The position numbers were made by a program, and so were the translations under genes. The notes under the pieces were generated by a model. The model made no database searches. It was not told where the DNA came from and worked only from the letters and a program-made list of their open reading frames with translations. Below are positions 3,761 through 22,675 of a stretch of 54,893 bases of DNA, piece after piece. This DNA comes from Oricola indica (GTDB lineage Bacteria > Pseudomonadota > Alphaproteobacteria > Rhizobiales > Rhizobiaceae). Positions within the stretch are counted from its first letter, which is position 1. Every line of letters begins with the position of its first letter. The stretch is from NCBI RefSeq assembly GCF_019966595.1, contig NZ_JAINFJ010000017.1, forward strand, positions 1-54,893, written 5' to 3'.

Positions 3761-4019
3761 CACGAGCGCTGCGACGCTCCAGTGGACCGGGTGCGATACC
3801 TGCAATCAGAAGACCGGCATCGCCCGCGACTTCGGAACTTCTATGCGCCCGACGACTTCTAACTAAAGCATCTTGATGATTTCGAAATTCTGCACGACTG
3901 GCTCTATCGTCGCATCATCCGCCACTGGATGAACAGACGCGTCGACAGGATCTAGAACGGCCAATTGCCGCGCGTTCCGGGTCTCGCTCTAACGAAACGC
4001 AGTCATGGGGAAACAAACC

Positions 4020-4976
4020 ATGCCACATGATCACGGCCACGCCCATATCGACCCCGCATCCGGCGATCGACGCGTCTCGATCGCTATTTGGGCGAACGGG
4101 CTTCTGACCGTTGTGCAGATCGCAGGCGGCATCCTAGCAGGCAGTCTCGCCCTGATCGCCGACGCTCTGCACAATTTCTCGGACATGGCGTCGCTGGTCA
4201 TCGCCTTCGTCGCGCGCAAGATAGCAAGGCGGCCGCCGGATGAGCGCATGACTTTCGGCTACGGGCGGATCGAGATCGTTGCGGCACTGATCAATTACAC
4301 GACGCTGATCCTCGTAGGCGTCTACCTGATCTACGAGGGCGGCATGCGGATGATCGATCCTCCCGAAGTCCAGGGCTGGACCGTGGTGATCCTCGGTGGT
4401 GTGGCACTCCTCGTGGACACGTTGACCGCGCTCCTGACGTACTCGATGCAGAAAGGCAGCGTGAACATCCGTGCGCTCTTCTTACACAACTTGTCAGACG
4501 CGCTTGCCTCCGTCGCGGTCATCGTCGGCGGCTCGCTGATCATCCTCTACGACATGCGGTGGGTCGATCCTGCTATCACCATCGGCATTGCGCTCTACAT
4601 TCTCTACCTCGCCGTGACCGAGATCGGCGGACCAGCGCGAACCCTGATGCTGGGGAGCCCGCCAGACATCGACAACGCGGCCGTCATTGAGGCGATGCGA
4701 AGCGCCGAAGGGGTGTCCGACGTTCACCACGTGCATCTCTGGCAAATGCAGGAGCACGAAGCGGCGCTCGACTGCCACGTGGTCCTCACGGCCGACGGAT
4801 GGATGCAGATCGAAGCGGTCAAGAGCGCCATGAAGAAGCGGCTAGGAGATAGTTTCGGCATCGCCCATTCCAGCCTCGAATTCGAACGCGAGGATAACGC
4901 GCACCAGAATGCCGACCTTTACGGCCATGGCGGAGCGGCACAAAAGGAGGAAAGACATGTACACCGAGACACTTAA
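4020..4976 (+). CDS. CDF-family cation efflux transporter (CzcD/ZitB-like)
   Basis: A 318-residue six-helix cation diffusion facilitator that exports Zn(II)-type cations by proton antiport. The N-terminus is His-rich ('MPHDHGHAH'). Both site-A pairs are visible: H51/D55 in 'DALHNFSD' (TM2) and the HxxxD of 'LFLHNLSDALAS' (TM5). A C-terminal cytoplasmic domain with 'VHHVHLWQMQEHEAALD' follows, and the tail is His-containing. Start 4020 is preferred over the in-frame ATG at 4005 because GGGGA lies 8 bases before it. The 3' end overlaps the next gene by 20 bp. Confidence 0.95.
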   Translation: MPHDHGHAHIDPASGDRRVSIAIWANGLLTVVQIAGGILAGSLALIADALHNFSDMASLVIAFVARKIARRPPDERMTFGYGRIEIVAALINYTTLILVGVYLIYEGGMRMIDPPEVQGWTVVILGGVALLVDTLTALLTYSMQKGSVNIRALFLHNLSDALASVAVIVGGSLIILYDMRWVDPAITIGIALYILYLAVTEIGGPARTLMLGSPPDIDNAAVIEAMRSAEGVSDVHHVHLWQMQEHEAALDCHVVLTADGWMQIEAVKSAMKKRLGDSFGIAHSSLEFEREDNAHQNADLYGHGGAAQKEERHVHRDT

Positions 4977-11392: not shown

Positions 11393-11478
11393 AGGTTGGA
11401 GTGAGACTTATCGATCGGCTGAGACGGGTAGCCCGCAAACGTCGCTCACCCTGTGCTAGCGATCAGGGAGTGACCTGT

Positions 11479-12207
11479 GTGTCAGTGGATGTTTTGAACG
11501 GTCATATCCTAGTGGTTGATGACCATCAGGATATTCGAGATCTGGTCGCCGGGCTGCTCGCCAAAGAAGGATATCGCGTCAGCGCAGCAGCGGATGGACG
11601 ACAGATGCGTCGGCAGCTCATCGAAAGCAGCGTCGACCTTGTCGTTCTCGATCTCATGTTGCCAGGAGAGGACGGGCTCACCCTTTGTCGCGATCTCAGA
11701 GCCACGACTAATATACCAGTTGTCATGCTCACCGCGAAAGGCGACGAATTTGATCGTGTCCTCGGTCTCGAGATGGGCGCTGACGACTATCTGACAAAGC
11801 CTTTCGGCGGCAGGGAACTCGTGGCCCGAATCCGCGCGGTTCTTAGAAGGACGCGATCCGTTCACGCAGGAACGCGAAGCCAAACTGCGTGCGTGTGGCG
11901 GTTCGACCGATGGACATTCGACACAGCGACACGCTCTCTGAAGTCGACAGATGATGCGTTGCTTTCCTTGAGCACTGCCGAATTTAGCCTGCTGAAAGTA
12001 TTCGTTGAGCGGCCTCAGATTGTGCTCACGCGAGATCAACTCCTCGATTTGACCCGGGGCCGTGAGTCCGAATTCATTGATCGCAGCATCGACACCCGGA
12101 TCAGCAGGTTGCGGCGGAAGATCGAAGAGGATCCCCAAAACCCACAAATCCTCAAGACCGTGTGGGGCGACGGCTATGTATTTGCAGCCGACGTGTCGCG
12201 TGGATGA
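11479..12207 (+). CDS. OmpR-family response regulator
   Basis: A 242-residue two-domain regulator. The receiver domain has the acidic pair in 'ILVVDDHQDIR', phospho-acceptor D58 in 'LVVLDLMLPGEDG' and the conserved Lys in 'LTKPFGGRELVARI'. The winged HTH ends in 'SIDTRISRLRRKIEEDP' and 'ILKTVWGDGYVFA'. GTG at 11479 is chosen because AGGGAG lies 9 bases upstream; an open frame extends to 11401 but looks random. Its stop overlaps the kinase start by ATGA. The MerR-type promoter in front suggests metal-dependent expression of a second regulatory layer. Confidence 0.93.
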   Translation: MSVDVLNGHILVVDDHQDIRDLVAGLLAKEGYRVSAAADGRQMRRQLIESSVDLVVLDLMLPGEDGLTLCRDLRATTNIPVVMLTAKGDEFDRVLGLEMGADDYLTKPFGGRELVARIRAVLRRTRSVHAGTRSQTACVWRFDRWTFDTATRSLKSTDDALLSLSTAEFSLLKVFVERPQIVLTRDQLLDLTRGRESEFIDRSIDTRISRLRRKIEEDPQNPQILKTVWGDGYVFAADVSRG

Positions 12208-13661
12208 TCGTTCTGCTCCCGAAAAGCCTGAGCGGCCGGACAGTTGCCATTCTTGTGACGGGCCTTATTGCGACACATATCGTCACCCTGCTCGTACTGT
12301 CGGAAGATCGAGTTGAGTCGCTGACGCGCACAGAAGAGCAACACATCGCCCAGCATATTGCGTCTATTGCGAATATTGTTTCAGACGTTCCAAGCGAATG
12401 GAGGGATCGGATCGTTCGTTCCTCCGATGGCCACCTGTTCAACGTCCGAATAACACAGGACAACACCAGCGATAGGCTTCAACCTATTGGCACCAGGAAC
12501 AGCACGCTAGCCGACCTGTTGTTGCGACAGGTTCGACCGGGCACGGGCGAACCGATATCGGTGGACATAACCGACGCTAACCCCGGCAATACGCCGCTTG
12601 CGCCAGATGGCTGGCGCCGCTGGCTGGTTTCGCGGCTCAGTCGCCTCGCCTATGGACATGACCGCGACCAAGCTGTCCTGGTCTCGGTTCCGCTGTCAGA
12701 AGGGCAAAGGCTCAATTTCTCGACGTCGATGCCGCTGGCGTCGGCGCCTGGGTGGGAGCGACAGCTGGCGGTTACCGGTACCTTCTTGGTTATCGTACTG
12801 ACGCTTTCCCTGTGGGCCATCAGGAAGATGTCGAGCCCACTGGCACTGTTTGCACACGCCGCCACCGCTTTCGCTCGGAATGTCTATGCGCCGTCCTTGC
12901 CCGAGACAGGTCCGAGTGAAGTCCGGGAAGCCGCCCGGGCGTTCAACAACATGCAGAAGCGGGTCCTTCAGACGATCGAAGGGCGGGCCCAAATGCTCGG
13001 GGCCATCTCTCACGATTTGCGTACACCGCTGACGACAATTCGACTTCGGGCGGAGAGTTTGGGCGATTCCGAGGTCCGGCATCGGATCCTCGCGGCGATC
13101 GAGGAGATGGACGCGATGCTTGCCTCCACGCTGGCTTTTGCCAGGGAGGGCACCGCGCAGGAGGAACCGCAGGCAACGGATATCGGATCCCTATTGGAGG
13201 CGATCTGCAGCGATTTTTCGGACATCGGGCACGACGTCAGCTTTGTACCTTGCGGCACAATCGTCGCTGCATGCCGCCCACTGGCTTTGAAGCGAGCGTT
13301 GTCCAATCTCATCGACAACGCGGTCAAATATGGGGAGCGCGCTCATGTGGTTGCCAAGGCCAAGGAAGGGATGATCGACATCAGCATCACCGATCAAGGT
13401 CCCGGAGTCCCGGATGAAGAGTTGGAGCGCATATTCCAACCGTTCTACCGCATTGAAAGCTCAAGGAACCGCAACACCGGCGGCGCGGGCCTTGGACTGG
13501 CCATCGCCCAGATGGCTCTGGACATGCACGGCGGATCTATCCAACTGGAAAACCGCGGCGAAGCTGGCGGTCTTTGCGTACGGGTCCTGATGCCAGTAGG
13601 GACCAACGTCGCCAATCGCGGGGCCGCCCCAAGGCATCGATCTCGCCAGCCACGCAAGTAG
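12204..13661 (+). CDS. Membrane sensor histidine kinase
   Basis: A 485-residue kinase. TM1 covers about residues 11-33 and TM2 about 189-208, enclosing a periplasmic sensor of about 155 residues. A HAMP linker follows, then a HisKA domain with phospho-acceptor H270 ('GAISHDLRTPLTTIR') and a HATPase domain with N-box 'NLIDNAVKYG', 'DQGPGVP' and 'GGAGLGLAIA'. The sensor region has no Cys pair or His cluster that would point to a ligand. It is paired with the response regulator by an ATGA overlap. The target genes are not shown by the sequence; the SPFH operon starting 330 bp downstream is a natural candidate. Confidence 0.93.
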   Translation: MIVLLPKSLSGRTVAILVTGLIATHIVTLLVLSEDRVESLTRTEEQHIAQHIASIANIVSDVPSEWRDRIVRSSDGHLFNVRITQDNTSDRLQPIGTRNSTLADLLLRQVRPGTGEPISVDITDANPGNTPLAPDGWRRWLVSRLSRLAYGHDRDQAVLVSVPLSEGQRLNFSTSMPLASAPGWERQLAVTGTFLVIVLTLSLWAIRKMSSPLALFAHAATAFARNVYAPSLPETGPSEVREAARAFNNMQKRVLQTIEGRAQMLGAISHDLRTPLTTIRLRAESLGDSEVRHRILAAIEEMDAMLASTLAFAREGTAQEEPQATDIGSLLEAICSDFSDIGHDVSFVPCGTIVAACRPLALKRALSNLIDNAVKYGERAHVVAKAKEGMIDISITDQGPGVPDEELERIFQPFYRIESSRNRNTGGAGLGLAIAQMALDMHGGSIQLENRGEAGGLCVRVLMPVGTNVANRGAAPRHRSRQPRK

Positions 13662-13990
13662 CCGGCTTCAATGCGCCGGTGACTGACGGATTGGAATGAT
13701 CGCTTCCGCGTCAGCTGAGGGGCGACGCTTTAGAAAAGTGTTGCAGAATGTGTCAGAAGTCCTGTGCTGACAAAATCCGCCATGTCCGGGCCAGGTTGCG
13801 ACGAACTCCTGTAAATTCTGTCGTGTATGTGCAGGGCAGCACCGTGGCTCTCCGTTCGGTTGTGAACAAAGGGAGATGTCGTCAGCCGTTCTCCGACGCT
13901 GTTGACCCAGCCCCCCTTTGTCTCGCCCTTTCCCCCGAAGGAGCGTCGTGGCCGCCGAAGCTGGTTCCATTTCGCGAGAGTCGACAGACG
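13662..13990 (+). other. Upstream region of the SPFH operon
   Basis: 329 bp with no convincing gene. The next gene's frame is open from 13748, but the translation before 13991 has no domain character. No MerR-type promoter was found here, unlike at the other operons, so control by the adjacent two-component system or read-through from it is possible. Confidence 0.4.
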
Positions 13991-15538
13991 ATGGATCGTA
14001 AAGAGCGCACCGTATTCGTTACGATTCTCATCAACGGACTTCTGATCCTTTTCAAGTTCTGGTTATCAGCAGCTTCCGGAAGCCTGGCCCTCCGGTCCAG
14101 CGCCATCCATTCCCTCGCGGATCTCGCGATCGGCGTATTCGTTCTGATAGGTCTGTTCCTGAGCCGTACGAAGCTGGCGGCAGCCGCGCAAAACGGGGCT
14201 CGTGCCGTGGAAAATTGGGTGGCGCTCCTTGTTTCGGCGGCGATCTTCTATGTCGGGCTGGACATTGTCGGGGAGGTCCTTGCAGGCGAACCTCCCGACT
14301 TGAGGAACCTTGGGCCTATCACCCTCGCCTCTCTCGTTACCGTCGTGGTCGCCTACGTCATAGCCCGGTACAAGCTCTATGTGGGCCGCCAGACAGATTC
14401 CCCGGCATTGATTGCCAGCGGCTACCACTCTCGAGTAGACATTTATGCGTCGATTGTCGTTGTCGCAGGCTTGGGAGGTGCCGCTCTCGGCCTGGAGAAC
14501 CTGGACACGGCTGCAGCGGCCATCGTCGTCGTCATGATTTTTCTCTCTGGATTTGAGATCGCCGCTGCTGCGATCACTGCGCTGCGGCATCGTGAGCAGC
14601 TGCAAGTGGAAGCCGAGGACGCACACGGTCACCTCCCTAGCCGCGGCTGGTTTCGCATTTATGTTCCTATCGCATCGCTCGCCTTGATAGCTCTCTATTT
14701 CTTGACCGGCATCTACACGATCCAGCCTGGGGAAGTAGCGGTGGTGAGGCGCTTCGGAAAGGTGATCGAAGAGGCGGGGCCTGGAATGCACTATCGCTGG
14801 CCAAGCCCGATCGAGACCGTCGACGTGGTTGCGCTCGATCTGGTGAGACGAATCGAGACCGGCCCTCTGCAGATGCTGACGGGCGACGAGAACCTCATCT
14901 CTGTCCGGGCGAGCATTCAGTTCTCAGTCGGCGACGCTTCGGCATTCGTTCTCAGTGTATCCGCGCCGGACGACCTCGTCCTCCAGGCCGGCGTGGGAGC
15001 CCTGCGTCAGAGCGTTGGTGAGGACGCGGTTGACGCTATCCTCACGGTCGACAAGACCGCCATACAGGAAAAAGCCGTGAAGGCTGCCCAGGCGTCGCTC
15101 GACCGGAGTGCTGCGGGGATCCGGATCGTCGGCGTGCAATTGCTCGAGAGCGCGCCGCCTCCCGAAGTGGCTGATGCATTTCGCGACGTCGCGAGCGCGC
15201 GGGAAGATCGCAACACCTTCGTCAACGAGGCGCTCGCCTACCGTAACGAGGTTTTTCCGACCGCGCGCGGCGACGCCGACACTGCGCGGCAAGCTGCGCG
15301 AGCCTATGCCGCTGAAAAGCTCGCCTCATCCGCTGGAGATGCCGCGAATTTCGAATCCCGGCGACAAGCCTACGCGGCGGCGCCGGATATCACCCGCCAG
15401 CGCCTCTACCTCGAGGCCGTGGAGAAATCGCTGGCTGGCGCCAAGAAATTCGTGATGGACCCGACGATCATACCGCAATCGACGGATCTTTGGATAACAC
15501 AACCGGATAAGGCTCAACTGCTGCCCCCAATGCAATAG
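13991..15538 (+). CDS. CDF-transporter / HflK-like SPFH fusion protein
   Basis: A 515-residue fusion. Residues 1-200 form a CDF-type membrane domain of about six helices. They retain both metal-site pairs, H40/D44 ('SSAIHSLADL') and H146/D150 ('SGYHSRVDIY'). The cytoplasmic CDF domain is replaced by another helix (about 225-241) and an SPFH/Band-7 domain of HflK type: 'YTIQPGEVAVVRRFGKVIEE', 'GPGMHYRWPSPIETVDVV'. The Ala/Glu-rich C-terminal helix is typical of SPFH oligomers. The start at 13991 places the first helix at the N-terminus. It leads four tightly spaced genes. Whether it transports metal is not known; the residues needed are present. Confidence 0.88.
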   Translation: MDRKERTVFVTILINGLLILFKFWLSAASGSLALRSSAIHSLADLAIGVFVLIGLFLSRTKLAAAAQNGARAVENWVALLVSAAIFYVGLDIVGEVLAGEPPDLRNLGPITLASLVTVVVAYVIARYKLYVGRQTDSPALIASGYHSRVDIYASIVVVAGLGGAALGLENLDTAAAAIVVVMIFLSGFEIAAAAITALRHREQLQVEAEDAHGHLPSRGWFRIYVPIASLALIALYFLTGIYTIQPGEVAVVRRFGKVIEEAGPGMHYRWPSPIETVDVVALDLVRRIETGPLQMLTGDENLISVRASIQFSVGDASAFVLSVSAPDDLVLQAGVGALRQSVGEDAVDAILTVDKTAIQEKAVKAAQASLDRSAAGIRIVGVQLLESAPPPEVADAFRDVASAREDRNTFVNEALAYRNEVFPTARGDADTARQAARAYAAEKLASSAGDAANFESRRQAYAAAPDITRQRLYLEAVEKSLAGAKKFVMDPTIIPQSTDLWITQPDKAQLLPPMQ

Positions 15539-15561
15539 GGACGGGCGAGGACGATTACGAC

Positions 15562-16512
15562 ATGAAACCAGTTCGAATTGCCGCTCTTGGCGTCTTGGGC
15601 CTTGCCTTCCTGGGAGCAACATTGACCCTCTATCAGGTCGACACCACCGAGTACGCGATCGTGACGCAGTTTGGGCGGCCCGTCCGCGTGCTCGGTGACC
15701 CTGGTCTCTACATCAAAGCGCCCGACCCCATTCAAAGTGTTCTCAAAATCAGCAAGCAAATTCAAGTCTACAACCTACCGAAAACGGAATTCCTGAGTAG
15801 TGACAAGAAGAACATCATGGTGGAGGCCTATGCCACCTGGCAAGTAACGGACGCGCTGGCGTTTCTGAAGAACGTCAACAGCCTGCGCGGCGCCAGCACA
15901 CAGCTCAACGATATTATCAAAGCTGAGCTCGGAGCGGCATTGGGACAGGTCGAGCTCGGAAATCTCGTCACAGTCGATACCTCACAGGCGAGCCTTCCAG
16001 ACACCTTGAATGCCGTGAAGGAGAGGGCTGCAGCCCGCACGGGTGCTTATGGCTTCACGGTCACAGATATCCAGCTCAAGGAGCTCACGTTCCCGGAGGC
16101 CAACCTCACAAGTGTCTTCCAGCGCATGCGCTCGGAGCGCGAGGCGATCGCGCGCCAGTTTCGCTCGGAAGGCGCAGAAGAAGCAGCCCGCATACGAGCG
16201 GAAGCCGATACAGAGAAGGCGAAGATTCTCGCCGCCGCAAGCCGCGAATCCGCCGAGATCCGTGGGGCAGCCGATGCGGAAGCGATTGCGATCTATGCGG
16301 GCTCCTTCGGCAGGGACAAGGATTTTTACCGCTTCTCCAGAACGCTCGAAGCCTACGACAAGTTCATTGATGAAGGCACGACGTTGATTTTGCCTGCCGA
16401 TTCCGAACTCCTTCAGTATTTGGATCCACGAAACGCTCTGAAACTTCCTCAATCGTCGACCACGACTGCCGGATCGCCCAAGGTGACCGCGGATTCGGAG
16501 CGCGACAGATGA
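15562..16512 (+). CDS. hflC: HflC-like SPFH-family protein
   Basis: A 316-residue membrane-anchored SPFH protein: one helix (about residues 7-23), the SPFH domain from 'DTTEYAIVTQFGRPVRVLGD' onward and 'GLYIKAPDPIQSVLKI'. A long charged coiled region follows ('RMRSEREAIARQFRSEGAEE') and ends 'LILPADSELLQYLD', as in HflC. HflC and HflK form cage-like membrane assemblies that modulate FtsH; no ftsH is present here. It starts 23 bp after the fusion gene and overlaps the next gene by ATGA. Confidence 0.93.
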   Translation: MKPVRIAALGVLGLAFLGATLTLYQVDTTEYAIVTQFGRPVRVLGDPGLYIKAPDPIQSVLKISKQIQVYNLPKTEFLSSDKKNIMVEAYATWQVTDALAFLKNVNSLRGASTQLNDIIKAELGAALGQVELGNLVTVDTSQASLPDTLNAVKERAAARTGAYGFTVTDIQLKELTFPEANLTSVFQRMRSEREAIARQFRSEGAEEAARIRAEADTEKAKILAAASRESAEIRGAADAEAIAIYAGSFGRDKDFYRFSRTLEAYDKFIDEGTTLILPADSELLQYLDPRNALKLPQSSTTTAGSPKVTADSERDR

Positions 16513-17636
16513 CGGACGAGGATGTGGCAGAATCACCAAAGTCCCCTCCGGCGGCGGACGATGACAGCGGAAAAAATGTCCGCGACGTCGCGATCAAATC
16601 GAAGCTCCTTGTTCGCGCCATTGCGGAGGGTGGGCGGTTCGCATTTGCAGACTTCAAGGTCGCTCTTGGCCACCTAAGGCCCGGCCCTCTGCTTGCGGGT
16701 GCGGTGATGCTGATAGCTATCGGCTATGCTTTGACCGGCGTCTATTCGGTCGCGCCTGGAGAAGCTGCGGTTGTGCGCCGCTTTGGTGCGATTGTCCAAC
16801 CCAGTGTTGAACCGGGACTCCACTATCGGCTACCGTGGCCGATCGATCGCGTGGATATCGTCGATGTTACCAGTGTCCGACGTGAGCAAGTAGGCATAAG
16901 CGCTCCCGAGGAAGAGCACATACATCCTGAACCTCCGGCGAAACTTCAGGCGCTCTCCGGCGATACCAATGTTGTCGATGTAGAAGTCATCGTGCAGTAT
17001 CAGGTGCGCGAGCCAGCCAACTACATACTGAGCGTCGAATACGCTCCGTATCGCATCGTCCGAGACGCACTCCGGGCATCAGTCACCAGGCTGGTAACGC
17101 GTCTGCCGGTTGATGCATTGCTAACCAGCGGACGGCAGTCCTTGCAACAAGCCATCCGCGAGGAGACGCAATCGCGTCTGGATCAGTATCGGACCGGCCT
17201 CGTTATCGTCGGCGTTGATCTGCAGAAAGCGTTCCCTCCTGCCAACGTCGCGGATGCCTTCACAGCCGTCAATACCGCGCGCGAGGAAAAGGCCCGTCTG
17301 ATCAATGAGGCACGAGGATATGCGAACAGCCTCGTCCCAGAGGCCAGAGGCCAGGCACAGCAGCTGAAGGCACAGGCTGCCGCTTACCGATCCGCCGTTC
17401 TGGCGCAGGCAAGCGGAACGGCACGCGCTTTCGATCTTCTTTGGGACGAGTATCGAAAGAACGCAGAAGCATACGGCGAAGATGTGACCCGATATCGGAT
17501 GTATCTTGAGACCATCGAGAAGATCATGCCTCGAGTGCAGGTTTATGCTCTGGATACCGCGAAAGGCGGCAGCTTCAACCTGAGACTTTATGGCGCTCAG
17601 AATGGCGCACCAACAAACGGTGAGGCAGCGCGCTAG
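16509..17636 (+). CDS. HflK-like SPFH-family protein (second HflK)
   Basis: A 375-residue protein with a 55-residue cytoplasmic N-terminus, a helix at about 60-78 and an SPFH domain opening 'YSVAPGEAAVVRRFGAIVQP' with 'GLHYRLPWPIDRVDIV'. The coiled C-terminal part has 'EARGQAQQLKAQAAAYR'. It is the classical HflK counterpart, without a transporter domain. The set therefore holds two HflK-type and one HflC-type subunits. ATGA overlap with hflC and a 2-bp gap to the isomerase gene imply one transcript. Confidence 0.92.
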   Translation: MTDEDVAESPKSPPAADDDSGKNVRDVAIKSKLLVRAIAEGGRFAFADFKVALGHLRPGPLLAGAVMLIAIGYALTGVYSVAPGEAAVVRRFGAIVQPSVEPGLHYRLPWPIDRVDIVDVTSVRREQVGISAPEEEHIHPEPPAKLQALSGDTNVVDVEVIVQYQVREPANYILSVEYAPYRIVRDALRASVTRLVTRLPVDALLTSGRQSLQQAIREETQSRLDQYRTGLVIVGVDLQKAFPPANVADAFTAVNTAREEKARLINEARGYANSLVPEARGQAQQLKAQAAAYRSAVLAQASGTARAFDLLWDEYRKNAEAYGEDVTRYRMYLETIEKIMPRVQVYALDTAKGGSFNLRLYGAQNGAPTNGEAAR

Positions 17637-17638
17637 CC

Positions 17639-19810
17639 ATGGCGGATGGTTGGCGTCAGATTTGGTCCGATTTTCGCGATAGCCTCAGAGGAAAGCCATC
17701 GAAACCGGACAGCGATCGCACGGTCGAACCTCCAGAATCGGCTGACAGCCGGGCTACGATCGCACCCGGTCCACCAATTGCCACTGCCTCGCCAAAACCT
17801 CCTGCGTCCGATCCGGCCGCAGCGAATTCGAGTCCCGATGACTCGGAGCAGCTCACCCGCCAATTGACGGAAAGCGCACCGTCGGAGACAGAATCGACGG
17901 CAGACTCAGATCAGGCTCAGCCGGCGCCAGCACGGCGACCGACACTGGGTCAGTATGTGGCGAGCATTTTCGCGATCACGACCATTCCCGCCGCGCTCGT
18001 CTTCTTCTCGTCGGACTATTTCGCCGACATGACACTCCCATCTCCTCCGGCCCCCAACGTCGTCGCGACATTCGAGGGGGGGCAGATAACCCTTGAAGAC
18101 ATCGAAGCTCACCTGAATGTGCTCTCGTCGTCCACCAGCAGCCCTGGTCCCATGTCGCAGGAGGCGGTTCTTGAGACGGTTGAAGATCTCGTATCCGATC
18201 AACTTATTCTCCGATGGGCAGCTAGTCGAAAGCCGGAAGCCGACGAGAGCTTCCAACATGCGATCAAACACATAAATGAAAATCTCAATCTCGAATCCTT
18301 CGCGGACCAGCTTCATACCGAGCGCATCTCAATCTCCGAGAGCAGCATCCGCGAATATTACGATAAGAACAAAGCGCGCTATGAAGGACGTAGCTTTACC
18401 GAGGTGCGCGATGAGATACGGCGGACCCTGGTTGCCGAGCAGGAACCCGCTTTTGTCGAAGACTATTTAGAGAAGCTGCGAACGAACGCATCGATCACTC
18501 GCAGTTTCGATCTCCTGGATGTACCAGCTCCGAGCCAGGAGGAGCTTGAGACCTACTACCGACAGAACATCGACCAATTCAAATTGCCACGCCGCGCCAT
18601 CGTTGATGAACTGGAGTTTAGTGCATCACAATTCGGCCCGAAGGCCCAACAAGAGGCGGCCAGCGCCTTACTGGGCATCCAAGGCGGTGCAACATTCCAG
18701 GCGACAGCAGGGCGATTCTCGACGGCGCGTTTTTCATCCCGGGCGGAGGTGCCCGAAGGCAGCAAGAACCCCGATTGGGACAAAAACGTCTTCGCACTGG
18801 TTCCCGGGGAACTGGCGAGCGTGTTTCAGGCAGGCGGATCGTATTACGTCGTCCGCCTTCAGGAGGTCATGCCTGCAGGCGCAAAGAGCTTCGCCGAAGT
18901 CCGTCCGACAATCATGACAACCGTGCGCACGCAAAAGGAACAGCAATGGTTCGCGGACAACGGCGAAAAGACGCTCTTCACGATCAAGGGACAGCGCTAC
19001 AGCCTTCGCGATTTCTACAAGGAATACGAGGAAGCCTCACTTCGCGACCAGTTCGAAGGGGCAGAGGGCCTCAAACGTTTGGCAAACGCGCTGATTGATC
19101 GCATGCTCCTGGTATCGGACACCTATGACAGGTTGCTCGACGTCGCAAACAAACCCCTTGCCGACGAAACGCGACTCCGTCTGCTGCGGCAAATGATGGA
19201 GCAGGAGGAGGTGGACGACCGGATCGAAGTCAGCGACGAGCAAATTCAAGCATTCTACTCCGACAATCGCGATCGCCTTGTGAGTCCTCCGAAGTCGAGA
19301 ATCCGTTATGTCCGTATCGGTCTTGGCTCAAGCGAGGCGGACGTGAGTCGTGCACGCGAACGTTCAGACGAAGCCTATATGAAGCTGACCGGAGCTGTCC
19401 CGGGGCCGGACTTCGCCTCGGTGGCGCAAGAGTATTCCGAGGATGTCGAAACAGCTTCAAAGGGTGGCGAGTTCCCTGGTTGGATCGGCGAAAGCGGGGA
19501 TCCCCTAAGCGAACTGATGAGCCACCCATTCCATGAAGCGATTCAAGACATGGAGCCGGGAAAAGTAGGCAAACCATTCGAGTTGGGAGGCAGCATCTAC
19601 ATCGTGGAAGTGACGGAACGAACTTCGCCGCAGCAGTTAACACTTGACGAGGCAAAGCCCTTTATCGAGGAGTACCTGACCAACCAACAGCATCGCTCTA
19701 TGGCCGAGGAATTGCAGAGGCGGCAACTCCAAGAAGGCAAGGTGCAATTGTATCCGCAGGTTCTGGAAGAATATCTCACGCGCGCGGCCTCTCGGGACCA
19801 ACCGACATAG
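17639..19810 (+). CDS. Membrane-anchored SurA/PpiD-like prolyl isomerase with two PpiC-type domains
   Basis: A 723-residue protein with an acidic, Pro/Ser-rich cytoplasmic N-terminus of 100 residues, one helix (about 106-124) and a periplasmic part. A SurA-N-like helical region ('LVSDQLILRWA') is followed by two parvulin-like domains, about 315-410 and 545-660. The second is more canonical ('GPDFASVAQEYSEDVETASK', 'GGEFPGWIG'); the first is divergent. PpiD-type proteins act as periplasmic chaperones at the membrane. Its place directly after three SPFH genes suggests a joint membrane quality-control assembly, which is inference. Confidence 0.88.
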   Translation: MADGWRQIWSDFRDSLRGKPSKPDSDRTVEPPESADSRATIAPGPPIATASPKPPASDPAAANSSPDDSEQLTRQLTESAPSETESTADSDQAQPAPARRPTLGQYVASIFAITTIPAALVFFSSDYFADMTLPSPPAPNVVATFEGGQITLEDIEAHLNVLSSSTSSPGPMSQEAVLETVEDLVSDQLILRWAASRKPEADESFQHAIKHINENLNLESFADQLHTERISISESSIREYYDKNKARYEGRSFTEVRDEIRRTLVAEQEPAFVEDYLEKLRTNASITRSFDLLDVPAPSQEELETYYRQNIDQFKLPRRAIVDELEFSASQFGPKAQQEAASALLGIQGGATFQATAGRFSTARFSSRAEVPEGSKNPDWDKNVFALVPGELASVFQAGGSYYVVRLQEVMPAGAKSFAEVRPTIMTTVRTQKEQQWFADNGEKTLFTIKGQRYSLRDFYKEYEEASLRDQFEGAEGLKRLANALIDRMLLVSDTYDRLLDVANKPLADETRLRLLRQMMEQEEVDDRIEVSDEQIQAFYSDNRDRLVSPPKSRIRYVRIGLGSSEADVSRARERSDEAYMKLTGAVPGPDFASVAQEYSEDVETASKGGEFPGWIGESGDPLSELMSHPFHEAIQDMEPGKVGKPFELGGSIYIVEVTERTSPQQLTLDEAKPFIEEYLTNQQHRSMAEELQRRQLQEGKVQLYPQVLEEYLTRAASRDQPT

Positions 19811-19897: not shown

Positions 19898-22675
19898 ATG
19901 ACCGCTGCAGCACGCCGCACCCGCTTTCGGGTTGAAGGCATGGATTGCGCAAGTTGCGCCGCCAAGATCGACAAAGCGGTCCGACGAATACCGGATGTCA
20001 CAGATGTGAACGTATCGGTTGTTGCTGGCACCATGAGCGTTGAACACGGAGACAAGCTCGATCTCGACACACTGGCCCAAAAGGTCAACCGGCTAGGCTA
20101 TAAGGCCACACGCCTTGGTGCGGTGAAGAAGTCGAAGGCTGCGGAGCCCGCCCAAGGTCAAGACCGAATGTCCGACCATTCGGACCATGACCACGACCAC
20201 GCCGATCACGATCATTCGGACCATGACCATGCCGGCCATGCGCACGGGCCGGACGGCAAGCACGATCATGCCGACCATGACCACGATCACGCCGGACACG
20301 ACCATTCCGGCCATGACCATGCAGGACATGTTCACGGGACGGATTACAAGCACGATCATGCTGATCGCGATCACGCGGGGCACAGTCATTCAGGCCAAGA
20401 TCGCGCCGCGCCTGGTTACATCGAGGAGACTGCGTCGGCAGGCGCGCATCAGACCCGCTTTCGCGTCGCCGGCATGGATTGCGCGAGCTGTGCGGCAAAG
20501 ATCGACACGGCAGTGCGCCGTATGCCGGATGTCACTGATGTGAAGGTATCAGTTGTTGCTGGCACCATGACCGTCACGCACGGGAGCAAGGCTGACCTCG
20601 ACGAACTTGCCCGCAAGGTCACCAGCCTTGGCTACAAAGCCGCGCCGATAGGCCCTGCGGGACAAAAGCCGGCCACCGCCCCCTCAAACCATGTCCATGG
20701 GCCGGATGGTAGGCATGACCAGACACTGACAGGAAGCGGGATCACTACCGAGGCGCCTGATGCCCTGGAAGGCATGCACGGCCACGATCACGGGCCGCAG
20801 GACGGACCCTGGTGGAAAACATCTAAAGCGCAATTGACGATCATCTGCGGCATCGCGCTGGCCGTCGCCTTTGGGCTTTCGCAGGTTCTTCCGCAGACCC
20901 AGCCGTGGGGCTTCATCGTTGCAATGGCCGTCGGGCTCATACCAATTGCGCGACGCGCCTTGCTCGGTGCTGCAAACGGCAGCCCGTTCACAATCGAGAC
21001 GTTGATGACGGTCGCGGCTGTGGGAGCCGTCATCATCAATGCGGCCGAAGAGGCCGCCGTCGTCGTCTTCCTGTTTCTTGTCGGTGAACTCCTTGAAGGG
21101 ATAGCGACAGGCCGGGCTCGTGCGTCGATACGGGCGCTCGCAACACTGATGCCCAAGACTGCGCTCCTCGAGCGCGACGGTGCCACGCAGACGGTTCCCG
21201 CTGAAAGCCTGACGGTAGATGCTGTGGTGCTCGTTCGGCCCGGCGACCGTGTGCCCGCCGACGGCGTCGTGCTCTCCGGCGAAAGCGCGGTCGACGAGGC
21301 GCCGGTGACCGGCGAGTCGGTACCGAAGCGCAAGGAGCAGGGCGACAATGTCTTCGCCGGCACTGTGAACCAGGAAGGCGTGCTCAGGGTGCGTGTAACG
21401 GCAGCAGCGGCCGACAACACCATTTCCCGCATCATCGCATTGGTCGAGGAGGCCCAGGAGTCCAAGGCGCCGACCGAACGTTTTATCGATCGCTTCTCGA
21501 AATATTATACCCCGGGCGTAATGGTGGTGGCTGCACTGATAGCGATTTTGCCGCCGCTGCTGGCCGGCGCGGAATGGAACACCTGGATCTATCGTGGACT
21601 CGCAGTTCTCCTGATCGGATGCCCCTGCGCGCTGGTCATCTCCACGCCTGCGGCGATCGCCGCGGCGCTATCCGCCGGCGCGCGCCGTGGTCTCCTGATG
21701 AAGGGCGGAGCGGTGCTGGAGAATCTGGGCAAAGTCAACTATGTCGCGCTCGACAAAACGGGGACGCTTACCGAAGGCAAGCCGAAGGTCACCGACATCA
21801 TCGGTGTGGCACGCGACGAGCGCGAGGTATTGAGGCTCGCAGCGGCCCTTGAGGCCGGATCGAGCCATCCGCTGGCGGTGGCCATCCTGGCAAGGGCGGA
21901 GGCTGACAAGGTTCCTGTCGTCGCCGCCACCGATGCCGGCGCTGTTGGCGGCAAGGGTGTGGTAGGGACAGTGGATGCGGTTAAGCTCTTTCTCGCTTCA
22001 CCGCGCGCCGCGGCCGAAAAGGTCAAATTGGACCAAGGGCTGCTATCGCAAATCGCCGCGCTGAACGACGAAGGCAAGACTGTTTCGGTGCTGCTTGCCG
22101 GAACGGAGGTGGCGGGCCTCTTCGCAATACGCGACGAACCGCGAGAGGACGCCAAGACCGGTATAGCCGCATTACACGATCTTGGAGCCGAAACCGTCAT
22201 GCTGACGGGCGACAATGAGCGGACGGCGAAAGCCATAGCCTCGTCGCTCGGCATGGAAGCACGCGCAGAACTGATGCCGCAGGACAAACAGAAGATCGTC
22301 GGCGAGATGCGCGCGAAGGGCAAGTTCGTGGCCAAGGTCGGTGACGGGATCAATGACGCTCCGGCGCTCGCAGCTGCTGACATTGGCATTGCCATGGGCA
22401 GCGGCACGGACGTTGCTCTGGAAACAGCCGATGCGGCCGTCTTGCATGGCCGTGTCAAGGACGTCGCCAATATGGTGGTGTTGTCGCGCCTCACCATGCG
22501 TAACATCCTCCAGAATATCACTCTCTCGCTTGGCCTGAAGGCCGTGTTCCTCGTAACCACGGTTCTCGGCGTGACCGGGCTGTGGCCCGCCATTCTTGCC
22601 GATACCGGCGCGACGGTATTGGTCACCGCCAATGCCATGCGCCTGCTCGCCTGGAAGGGGCTTCGTGAAACATGA
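19898..22675 (+). CDS. P1B-type heavy-metal ATPase (Zn/Cd/Pb class) with two HMA domains and His-rich linkers
   Basis: A 925-residue exporter. HMA1 (about 8-72) and HMA2 (about 185-250) both carry 'GMDCASCAAKID'. Between them is a linker of DHDH/HDHAGH repeats, and a shorter His stretch follows HMA2. The core has 'IGCPCALVIS' (C575-P-C577), phosphorylated D619 in DKTGT and an Asp in the last helix ('ILADTGAT', D902). CPC with that Asp is the P1B-2 pattern for Zn(II)/Cd(II)/Pb(II). GGAG stands before the ATG. A 90-bp gap to the PCuAC gene allows co-transcription. Confidence 0.95.
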   Translation: MTAAARRTRFRVEGMDCASCAAKIDKAVRRIPDVTDVNVSVVAGTMSVEHGDKLDLDTLAQKVNRLGYKATRLGAVKKSKAAEPAQGQDRMSDHSDHDHDHADHDHSDHDHAGHAHGPDGKHDHADHDHDHAGHDHSGHDHAGHVHGTDYKHDHADRDHAGHSHSGQDRAAPGYIEETASAGAHQTRFRVAGMDCASCAAKIDTAVRRMPDVTDVKVSVVAGTMTVTHGSKADLDELARKVTSLGYKAAPIGPAGQKPATAPSNHVHGPDGRHDQTLTGSGITTEAPDALEGMHGHDHGPQDGPWWKTSKAQLTIICGIALAVAFGLSQVLPQTQPWGFIVAMAVGLIPIARRALLGAANGSPFTIETLMTVAAVGAVIINAAEEAAVVVFLFLVGELLEGIATGRARASIRALATLMPKTALLERDGATQTVPAESLTVDAVVLVRPGDRVPADGVVLSGESAVDEAPVTGESVPKRKEQGDNVFAGTVNQEGVLRVRVTAAAADNTISRIIALVEEAQESKAPTERFIDRFSKYYTPGVMVVAALIAILPPLLAGAEWNTWIYRGLAVLLIGCPCALVISTPAAIAAALSAGARRGLLMKGGAVLENLGKVNYVALDKTGTLTEGKPKVTDIIGVARDEREVLRLAAALEAGSSHPLAVAILARAEADKVPVVAATDAGAVGGKGVVGTVDAVKLFLASPRAAAEKVKLDQGLLSQIAALNDEGKTVSVLLAGTEVAGLFAIRDEPREDAKTGIAALHDLGAETVMLTGDNERTAKAIASSLGMEARAELMPQDKQKIVGEMRAKGKFVAKVGDGINDAPALAAADIGIAMGSGTDVALETADAAVLHGRVKDVANMVVLSRLTMRNILQNITLSLGLKAVFLVTTVLGVTGLWPAILADTGATVLVTANAMRLLAWKGLRET
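20176..20395 (+). repeat. Degenerate tandem repeat encoding the His/Asp-rich ATPase linker
   Basis: Imperfect repeats of GACCAT/GACCAC-type codons, with longer units around 'CATGCCGGCCATG' and 'AAGCACGATCATGC', encode about 30 His residues. It is inside the coding frame and not an intergenic array. Such linkers bind several metal ions and expand or contract by slippage. Confidence 0.8.

Follow-up and report, generated by a model that had tools for sequence, protein, structure and literature searches.

What the membrane cages built by SPFH proteins are for is still debated; from studies of stomatin comes the suggestion that such cages enclose and regulate transporters; in the available text of a preprint, stomatin cages enclose AQP1 and UT-B (PMC12407830). 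For the HflK/HflC-FtsH assembly of Escherichia coli, the accessible part of one paper reports that FtsH is contacted via HflK only, and that mutating R141, E142 and R185 of HflK together weakens FtsH binding (PMC13220708). Binding of Zn and Cd has been reported for a CDF transporter without the usual cytoplasmic domain (Russell and Soulimane 2012, as given in the reference list of PMC4995437), and in mycobacteria the PacL1/CtpC metal efflux platforms are described, in the portion of the paper at hand, as a scaffold that clusters metal exporters in the membrane (PMC9374683). Here we show that a 54,893-nucleotide contig of Oricola indica (NZ_JAINFJ010000017.1, positions 1 to 54,893; hereafter the window) encodes a zinc-type CDF domain and an HflK in one chain, a real and conserved fusion that opens a four-gene operon with HflC, a second HflK and a PpiD/SurA-like chaperone.

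The literature searched, which covers few subscription papers, yielded no description of a CDF-SPFH/HflK fusion, and the words 'cation' and 'transporter' do not occur in the available text of a survey of prokaryotic SPFH proteins (PMC2636767). Judged from sequence comparisons, the architecture is real, conserved, rare and mobile, and a metal function is plausible. In what we regard as an evenly balanced call, we read the operon as an accessory HflK/C-type SPFH cage with a built-in zinc-type transporter, probably switched by its own two-component system.

The fusion protein and its operon

The operon and the sites discussed below are as follows.

13991..15538, + strand: CDF-HflK fusion, 515 residues; CDF transmembrane domain 1-200, linker, seventh transmembrane helix (TM7) at about 223-241, HflK SPFH domain and long helix 243-490
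14108..14122, + strand: first half of the CDF transport site, codons 40-44 (H40, D44), from the FieF alignment; invariant in 10/10
14426..14440, + strand: second half of the CDF transport site, codons 146-150 (H146, D150), from the FieF alignment; invariant in 10/10
15562..16512, + strand: HflC, 316 residues; TIGR01932 at 174.1 bits, cut-off 134.4
16509..17636, + strand: second HflK (HflK2), 375 residues; TIGR01933 at 220.4 bits, cut-off 159.4
16908..16937, + strand: EEEHIHPEPP insert in HflK2, residues 134-143, a candidate periplasmic metal-binding loop just past the VRRE segment aligned with E. coli HflK R141/E142
17639..19810, + strand: membrane-anchored double-parvulin (PpiD/SurA-like) chaperone, 723 residues; Rotamase_2 298-423, Rotamase/Rotamase_3 at about 554-661

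The original prediction, made from the letters alone, described four genes separated by 23, -4 and 2 bp, the first joining a CDF membrane domain to an HflK-type SPFH domain and the next two being HflC and a plain HflK. Coordinates and reading frames agree with this, and the profile searches bear it out, with HflC and HflK2 both above their NCBIfam cut-offs. In the fusion protein, PF01545 spans residues 8-198 (E 3.5e-26, 92.7 bits, model positions 1-197 of 198) and PF01145 (SPFH) residues 243-414 (E 1.9e-20), and the same protein passes the NCBIfam cut-offs both for CDF (TIGR01297, 90.5 bits, cut-off 82.35) and for HflK (TIGR01933, 212.9 bits, cut-off 159.4). It thus carries the six-helix Cation_efflux transmembrane domain by which CDF membership is recognised. 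The cytoplasmic ZT_dimer domain, a usual though not universal CDF trait, is missing, as had been claimed: PF16916 finds no match in the fusion, and the same library matches it in the ordinary CDF encoded at 4005-4976.

Both HxxxD pairs named in the prediction are also present. In a phmmer alignment to E. coli FieF, H40/D44 of the fusion lie opposite D/D and H146/D150 opposite H/D, the transport-site residues of FieF; in CDFs this four-residue site is carried by TM2 and TM5, and an HxxxD/HxxxD arrangement resembles that of Zn-type CDFs. All four ligands are invariant across the 10 aligned fusions. The suggestion of a cation channel does not stand, CDF proteins being cation/proton antiporters and not channels. 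Hydropathy and charge predict six CDF helices with both ends of the domain inside, followed by TM7 and a periplasmic SPFH domain; where an HflK has a cytoplasmic N-terminus and a single membrane helix, the fusion has a six-helix CDF domain and seven helices in total. A Foldseek search with the AlphaFold model of the fusion returned E. coli HflK as its top match (7vhq_E, E 2.6e-19) and, over another stretch of the model, human ZnT1 at ranks 39 and 42 (8xma_A/B, E 2-3e-6, rmsd 2.9-3.1, 206-210 columns), and in a viral fold search the top matches were solely of SPFH and CDF type. A longer in-frame open reading frame from 13748 (596 residues) was considered for the true start and rejected as probably not the start, because the open frame in three relatives (L101, L103, L105) begins at the ATG of MDRKERT; the invariance of this peptide arises partly by construction, since it is one of the two patterns used to search for relatives.

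The two HflKs differ at positions that bear on FtsH. At the columns of the HflK2 insert, an HxH motif is present in 11/11 HflK2 rows, in 0/11 fusions and in 0/72 other HflKs, with the variant EEDHSHPEPP in the HflK2s of Carideicomes and Allosediminivita (L107, L108); the insert appears to adjoin the HflK-FtsH contact region, and metal binding is a candidate role for it. The equivalence of the neighbouring residues to E. coli R141/E142 is ambiguous by one column between MAFFT and phmmer, and they are excluded from the argument. At the column of E. coli R185, HflK2 keeps Arg in 11/11 and the fusion has Leu or Met in 11/11, with Arg or Lys in 60 of the 72 other HflKs. This difference suggests that FtsH is bound by HflK2 rather than by the fusion. 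One match to FtsH (PF01434) is present in the genome, on a different contig.

The fourth gene had been called a membrane-bound double prolyl isomerase. Two parvulin-type domains are indeed present; the second carries Tyr ('iryv') where a solved parvulin has His ('akhi'), the catalytic residue, and is probably non-catalytic. The motif RYVRI recurs in the second domain of L107 and L108, and a search by this pattern did not locate the equivalents in the Aminobacter and Tianweitania loci (L105, L106). The protein has a single hydrophobic stretch at about 107-128, and its match to the PpiD model PRK10788 (E 1.3e-19), at 70.4 of 493 bits, falls below the NCBIfam PpiD cut-off.

Distribution, selection and lateral transfer

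A scan of 84,980 species genomes with two exact N-terminal peptides gave 10 loci, in an Ahrensia metagenome-assembled genome (MAG), Nitratireductor indicus, two Rhizobiaceae, Chelativorans, Aminobacter, Tianweitania, a Hyphomicrobiales MAG, Carideicomes alvinocaridis and Allosediminivita pacifica, the last two having the lowest identity (65%); one of the 10 (L109) ends inside the fusion at a contig end. The list is a lower bound, since fusions with another N-terminus would be missed. Together with the window, an Aquibium oceanicum plasmid and the genome G1372, and counting L100 as G003 and L102 as G036, the fusion is present in at least 13 genomes or plasmids from two alphaproteobacterial orders at 65-100% identity. 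With 10 further genome loci and a complete plasmid record, it is neither unique to the window nor an artefact of its assembly, and its homologues do not always occur as separate CDF and hflK genes without the isomerase: the four-gene order recurs in 11/11 loci with enough unbroken DNA (window, L035, L101-L108, L116). The -4 overlap between HflC and HflK2 is present in 10/10 loci measured, the chaperone frame is open in 10 of the 11 and frame-shifted in L035, and in G003 the order is split over two contig ends (L079/L080). On the Aquibium plasmid (L035, 17649-19831) the shift lies near codon 150 of the chaperone gene and the record annotation starts further in; the record calls the fusion protein simply HflK.

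Within this range the fusion is rare. Full-length fusions were found in 3/61 genomes of relatives, 1/385 of the class, 1/398 of the phylum, 1/397 of the order, 3/295 of the family of Allosediminivita and 1/63 matching plasmid records, samples that overlap and include the own or centre genomes. The same samples, which are incomplete, contained no independent or more distant fusions. Of twenty stretches compared, three are from G003 and G036; the remaining 17, around better-scoring plain HflKs or long frames, held hflK-hflC pairs of the ordinary kind that lack a CDF part, a third SPFH gene and any convincing match to the chaperone, although one of them (L090) gave a weak 28.6% chaperone match in an overlapping frame. 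Loci L120-L123 play no part in the analysis. Searches of viral contigs gave no match to the fusion system, and an anti-phage defence system was considered and rejected, PADLOC matching 0/4 operon proteins at E 0.001.

Purifying selection acts strongly on both domains of the fusion. In comparisons with Aminobacter, Tianweitania, Carideicomes and Allosediminivita (L105-L108), where dS is near 1 for the first two and saturated for the last two, the CDF part has a dN/dS of 0.03-0.09 and the HflK part one of 0.05-0.11, with 0.16-1.05 for the linker and 0.23-0.94 for TM7; the comparison with the near-identical L101 gives noisy ratios (CDF 0.014, HflK 0.30). A quick tree built from 91 HflK domains places fusions (99) and HflK2s (100) in separate clades, each with members from both orders, and makes the two clades sister groups (94), a placement that carries a long-branch warning. 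The arrangement is most simply accounted for by one old event. That the fused HflK is a recent copy of HflK2 is unsupported, the two being 38% identical and in separate clades.

The fusion has also moved between lineages. Its DNA is 100% identical between the window genome (G000) and G003, whose chromosomal hflK genes are 83% identical, and 96.4% identical between G000 and G036 (chromosomal hflK 71.5%); lateral transfer follows from fusion identities that far exceed those of chromosomal hflK. Mobility also shows in the context: the G1372 copy has a phage integrase gene at a distance of about 12 kb, transposase genes occur within the window, and the Aquibium oceanicum copy resides on a plasmid typed as conjugative. 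HflK/C-type genes thus travel as accessory cargo amid metal and envelope genes. On a Nitratireductor rhodophyticola plasmid (L099, 9948-11546), a deletion has fused what remains of the kinase gene, its start, with the later portion of the chaperone gene; the fusion, HflC and HflK2 are gone, and the regulator and the P-type ATPase remain.

Neighbouring genes and proposed function

The genes and the candidate control region that flank the operon are listed here.

11449..12207, + strand: OmpR-type response regulator (Response_reg and Trans_reg_C); start codon uncertain, relatives beginning about 10 codons further in
12162..13661, + strand: EnvZ-like membrane histidine kinase (HAMP, HisKA, HATPase_c); hydrophobic stretches at about 15-46 and 202-220
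13747..13827, + strand: conserved upstream blocks, a candidate control region from the upstream-region alignment; AATGTGTC at 13747, GCGACGAACTCC at 13798, TGTCGTGTA at 13819
19898..22675, + strand: heavy-metal P-type ATPase, N-terminus rich in His, two HMA domains, from profile matches; the next gene in Rhizobiales loci, not next in Rhodobacterales

The two-component system adjoins the fusion in 13/13 loci, co-directional in Rhizobiales and divergent in the three Rhodobacterales; in Aquibium (L035) 1.5 kb lie between them. Regulator and kinase are best described by the OmpR (282 bits, cut-off 331) and EnvZ (211 bits, cut-off 415) models of NCBIfam, both below the cut-off. Upstream of the operon, AATGTGTC and GCGACGAACTCC-GTAAATT-TGTCGTGTA are largely kept in the aligned Rhizobiales loci, and ATGTGTCA also occurs in the divergent upstream region of L107/L108; these conserved blocks are present in the aligned regions, within which no response-regulator binding motif was established.

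The heavy-metal P-type ATPase lies directly downstream of the operon in the nine Rhizobiales loci whose DNA extends there (window, L035, L080, L101-L106), and in the two Rhodobacterales loci covering the corresponding stretch (L118, L119) an ATPase 51-53% identical to it is found about 4.7 kb downstream. For the window protein, Zn/Cd-family models outscore Cu-family ones, TIGR01512 (Cd) giving 522 bits against a cut-off of 313.5 and TIGR01511 (Cu) 414 against 397, so that both pass. Its HMA domains are separated and trailed by long His/Asp-rich stretches. The neighbours had been taken to support a link with metal stress. The ATPase is indeed near the fusion in both lineages; the two-component system, OmpR/EnvZ-like and below the metal-type cut-offs, does not itself show such a link. 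Elsewhere in the window are genes for SCO, PCuAC, Cox11/CtaG, DsbA-/DsbB-like, ScsC-like and DsbD-like proteins, Lnt and cytochrome b, as well as an L,D-transpeptidase, cell-wall hydrolases, an M23 peptidase, a further parvulin and, at 4005-4976, the ordinary CDF; the contig as a whole (362-54865) resembles a portable envelope kit. In the surroundings of the Rhodobacterales copies are genes for SCO, Caa3_CtaG, Zip, Lnt, M23, DsbA/DsbB-like proteins and P-type ATPases.

If the operon encodes an accessory cage with a transporter built into it, the CDF part would be a zinc-type cation/proton antiporter module minus its cytoplasmic regulatory domain, and the chain is predicted, in fold and topology, to pass through one more helix into a periplasmic HflK SPFH domain, so that any cage taking up fusion subunits would have CDF modules fixed in or around it. 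We infer a mixed cage in which HflC would alternate with the two HflKs and HflK2 would take the ordinary HflK role, most likely in contact with the single chromosomal FtsH, offering in addition a periplasmic His-rich loop. The PpiD-like protein would be the periplasmic chaperone of the assembly, and the adjoining envelope-type two-component system would probably turn the operon on. Its likely job would be to keep the export of metal in one location with the quality control of membrane or periplasmic proteins under metal or envelope stress. A bolder version, which we consider rather improbable, is a mobile metal platform, its transporters covalently part of the cage wall, in which CDF-HflK, at up to one per HflK position, exports Zn-type ions from the cytoplasm to beneath the dome, and the HxHPEPP loop of HflK2 binds metal beside the FtsH contact and thereby gates the engagement of FtsH; a chaperone and a sensor kinase would be dedicated to this platform.

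Several observations weigh against reading the operon as a cage with a zinc transporter. The invariance of the four ligands is weak evidence taken alone, because 142/200 CDF columns are invariant in the same 10-fusion set, and the FieF loop-site residues are unmatched in the fusion in the phmmer alignment. The AlphaFold model (19-sequence alignment, mean pLDDT 64.6, pTM 0.36) is moderate and uninformative on the relative placement of the two halves, and a shallower alignment gave a pLDDT of only 34.7. The absence of a basic residue at the R185 column is shared by 12/72 other HflKs. With regard to metal, the two-component system is in itself no proof of a link, because its best models are OmpR and EnvZ and it stays below the metal-type cut-offs (TIGR01387 cztR_silR_copR, 146 of 279.2 bits; TIGR01386 cztS_silS_copS, 130.4 of 292.55); the window ATPase narrowly passes the Cu-family cut-off as well, and in Rhodobacterales loci the P-type ATPase stands outside the operon. 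The setting is one of metal and envelope genes, in which the copper, redox and envelope signal is at least as strong as that of zinc. No donor that would reveal the substrate was found, the best separate CDF listed in the genomes of 61 relatives reaching 42 bits at 30% identity.

Some of these points fit a different role for the CDF part, which may be a metal sensor or a membrane anchor, metal at the four-residue site altering the packing of the fusion and thereby tuning FtsH access. Such a role, possible though in our view doubtful, would fit a protein from which both the FieF loop site and the cytoplasmic CDF domain are missing, and a fusion lacking the basic FtsH-contact residue could dilute the FtsH-binding HflK positions of a mixed cage. 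What an anchor would not need is the retention of six helices and a whole transport site at a dN/dS of 0.03-0.09, and the reported binding of Zn and Cd by a CDF without a cytoplasmic domain, given in the reference list cited above (Russell and Soulimane 2012), also speaks against this role.

The neighbouring genes admit another reading, in which the module would be where periplasmic and respiratory metalloproteins (cytochrome oxidase and further proteins with copper or disulfides) are assembled or quality-controlled, the CDF part would supply or remove metal ions locally and metal resistance would not be the point. We consider it unlikely: none of the genes concerned lies within the conserved operon, and a heavy-metal P-type ATPase accompanies the operon more constantly in Rhizobiales loci, even though SCO, PCuAC, Cox11 or Caa3_CtaG, DsbA/DsbB-, ScsC- and DsbD-like proteins, Lnt and cytochrome b are encoded in the window, near the Rhodobacterales copies or in both, and deletion of hflK and hflC is said, in the available text of two papers, to impair bacterial aerobic respiration (PMC13220708; PMC12005517). 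That the fusion is a functionless accident, an assembly error or a decaying gene is refuted by its conservation, since its rarity, the frame-shifted Aquibium chaperone gene and the Nitratireductor rhodophyticola plasmid on which a deletion removed the fusion, HflC and HflK2 together with most of the kinase gene and the beginning of the chaperone gene are outweighed by 13 genomes or plasmids at 65-100% identity, strong purifying selection on both domains and the same architecture in two orders.

Comparison with known systems

Four elements are new relative to the original prediction: the HxH insert of HflK2, the basic FtsH-contact residue lost from the fusion, lateral transfer, and the copper, redox and envelope neighbours. 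The first two enter directly into the comparison with E. coli HflK/HflC-FtsH (7vhq, 7wi3, 9cz2), to which the operon is similar in its HflK and HflC profiles above cut-off, in its periplasmic SPFH topology and in the best structural match of the fusion model. It differs in that a six-helix CDF domain replaces the N-terminal cytoplasmic region of one HflK, in having three SPFH genes (the fusion first, HflC next, HflK2 last) with their own chaperone and two-component system and no FtsH of their own, and in the pairing of a fusion without the FtsH-contact basic residue with an HflK2 that carries the HxH insert. PpiD has an N-terminal membrane anchor and a periplasmic parvulin-type domain, and the chaperone shares both. 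It resembles E. coli PpiD in matching PRK10788, though far below the PpiD cut-off, and is unlike it in having two parvulin-type regions and a long cytoplasmic N-terminus.

Accessory hflKC genes also travel without a fusion. A Vibrio alginolyticus plasmid (L124, 4874-8257) carries hflK-hflC followed directly by nhaA, and a Methylophaga plasmid (L036, 7929-11113) hflK-hflC followed by a cation:proton antiporter gene. The trait shared with the fusion operon is a link between accessory hflKC and a cation antiporter gene; the two plasmids differ in that the genes are separate, HflK is of ordinary length and neither a chaperone nor a two-component gene is annotated in those two stretches. On Roseovarius, Roseibium and Paracoccus plasmids (L125, L126, L039), accessory hflK-hflC occurs with genes of the transglutaminase family and Crp/Fnr regulators, and NhaA in the stretch read for two of the three. 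Judged from the few loci viewed, accessory HflKC may be paired with cation antiporters more widely, and the fusion would then be a tighter form of this pairing.

CDFs that lack the cytoplasmic domain, such as MmCDF3 of Maricaulis maris, have in common with the fusion a Cation_efflux domain, the HxxxD/HxxxD site and a FieF loop site that is not kept, this last reported in the accessible text as likewise not conserved in MmCDF3 (PMC4995437); the fusion, unlike proteins of this type, continues via an extra helix into a periplasmic SPFH domain. The PaFlo5-6-7 operon of Pseudomonas aeruginosa also groups three SPFH genes, which the paper does not class as HflK/C, and the words fusion and cation are absent from its main text as available (PMC13086221). 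The mycobacterial platforms share with the locus the involvement of a heavy-metal P-type ATPase; PacL1, however, as described in the part of the paper at hand, is a small transmembrane protein with Glu/Ala repeats and not an SPFH protein, no CDF takes part, and the foci form independently of flotillin (PMC9374683).

A natural fusion of transporter and cage subunit, held under purifying selection in two orders, makes the enclosure idea directly testable, because the fused transporter cannot diffuse away, its stoichiometry is genetically set, and the ligands and a candidate metal loop are known. The SPFH domain of stomatin is cytoplasmic. As far as the available text on stomatin with AQP1 and UT-B goes, the two cases are alike in that an SPFH cage is tied to a membrane transporter, and they differ in that the stomatin case is human and non-covalent, whereas in the operon described here the subunit itself would contain the transporter and the SPFH domain would be periplasmic.

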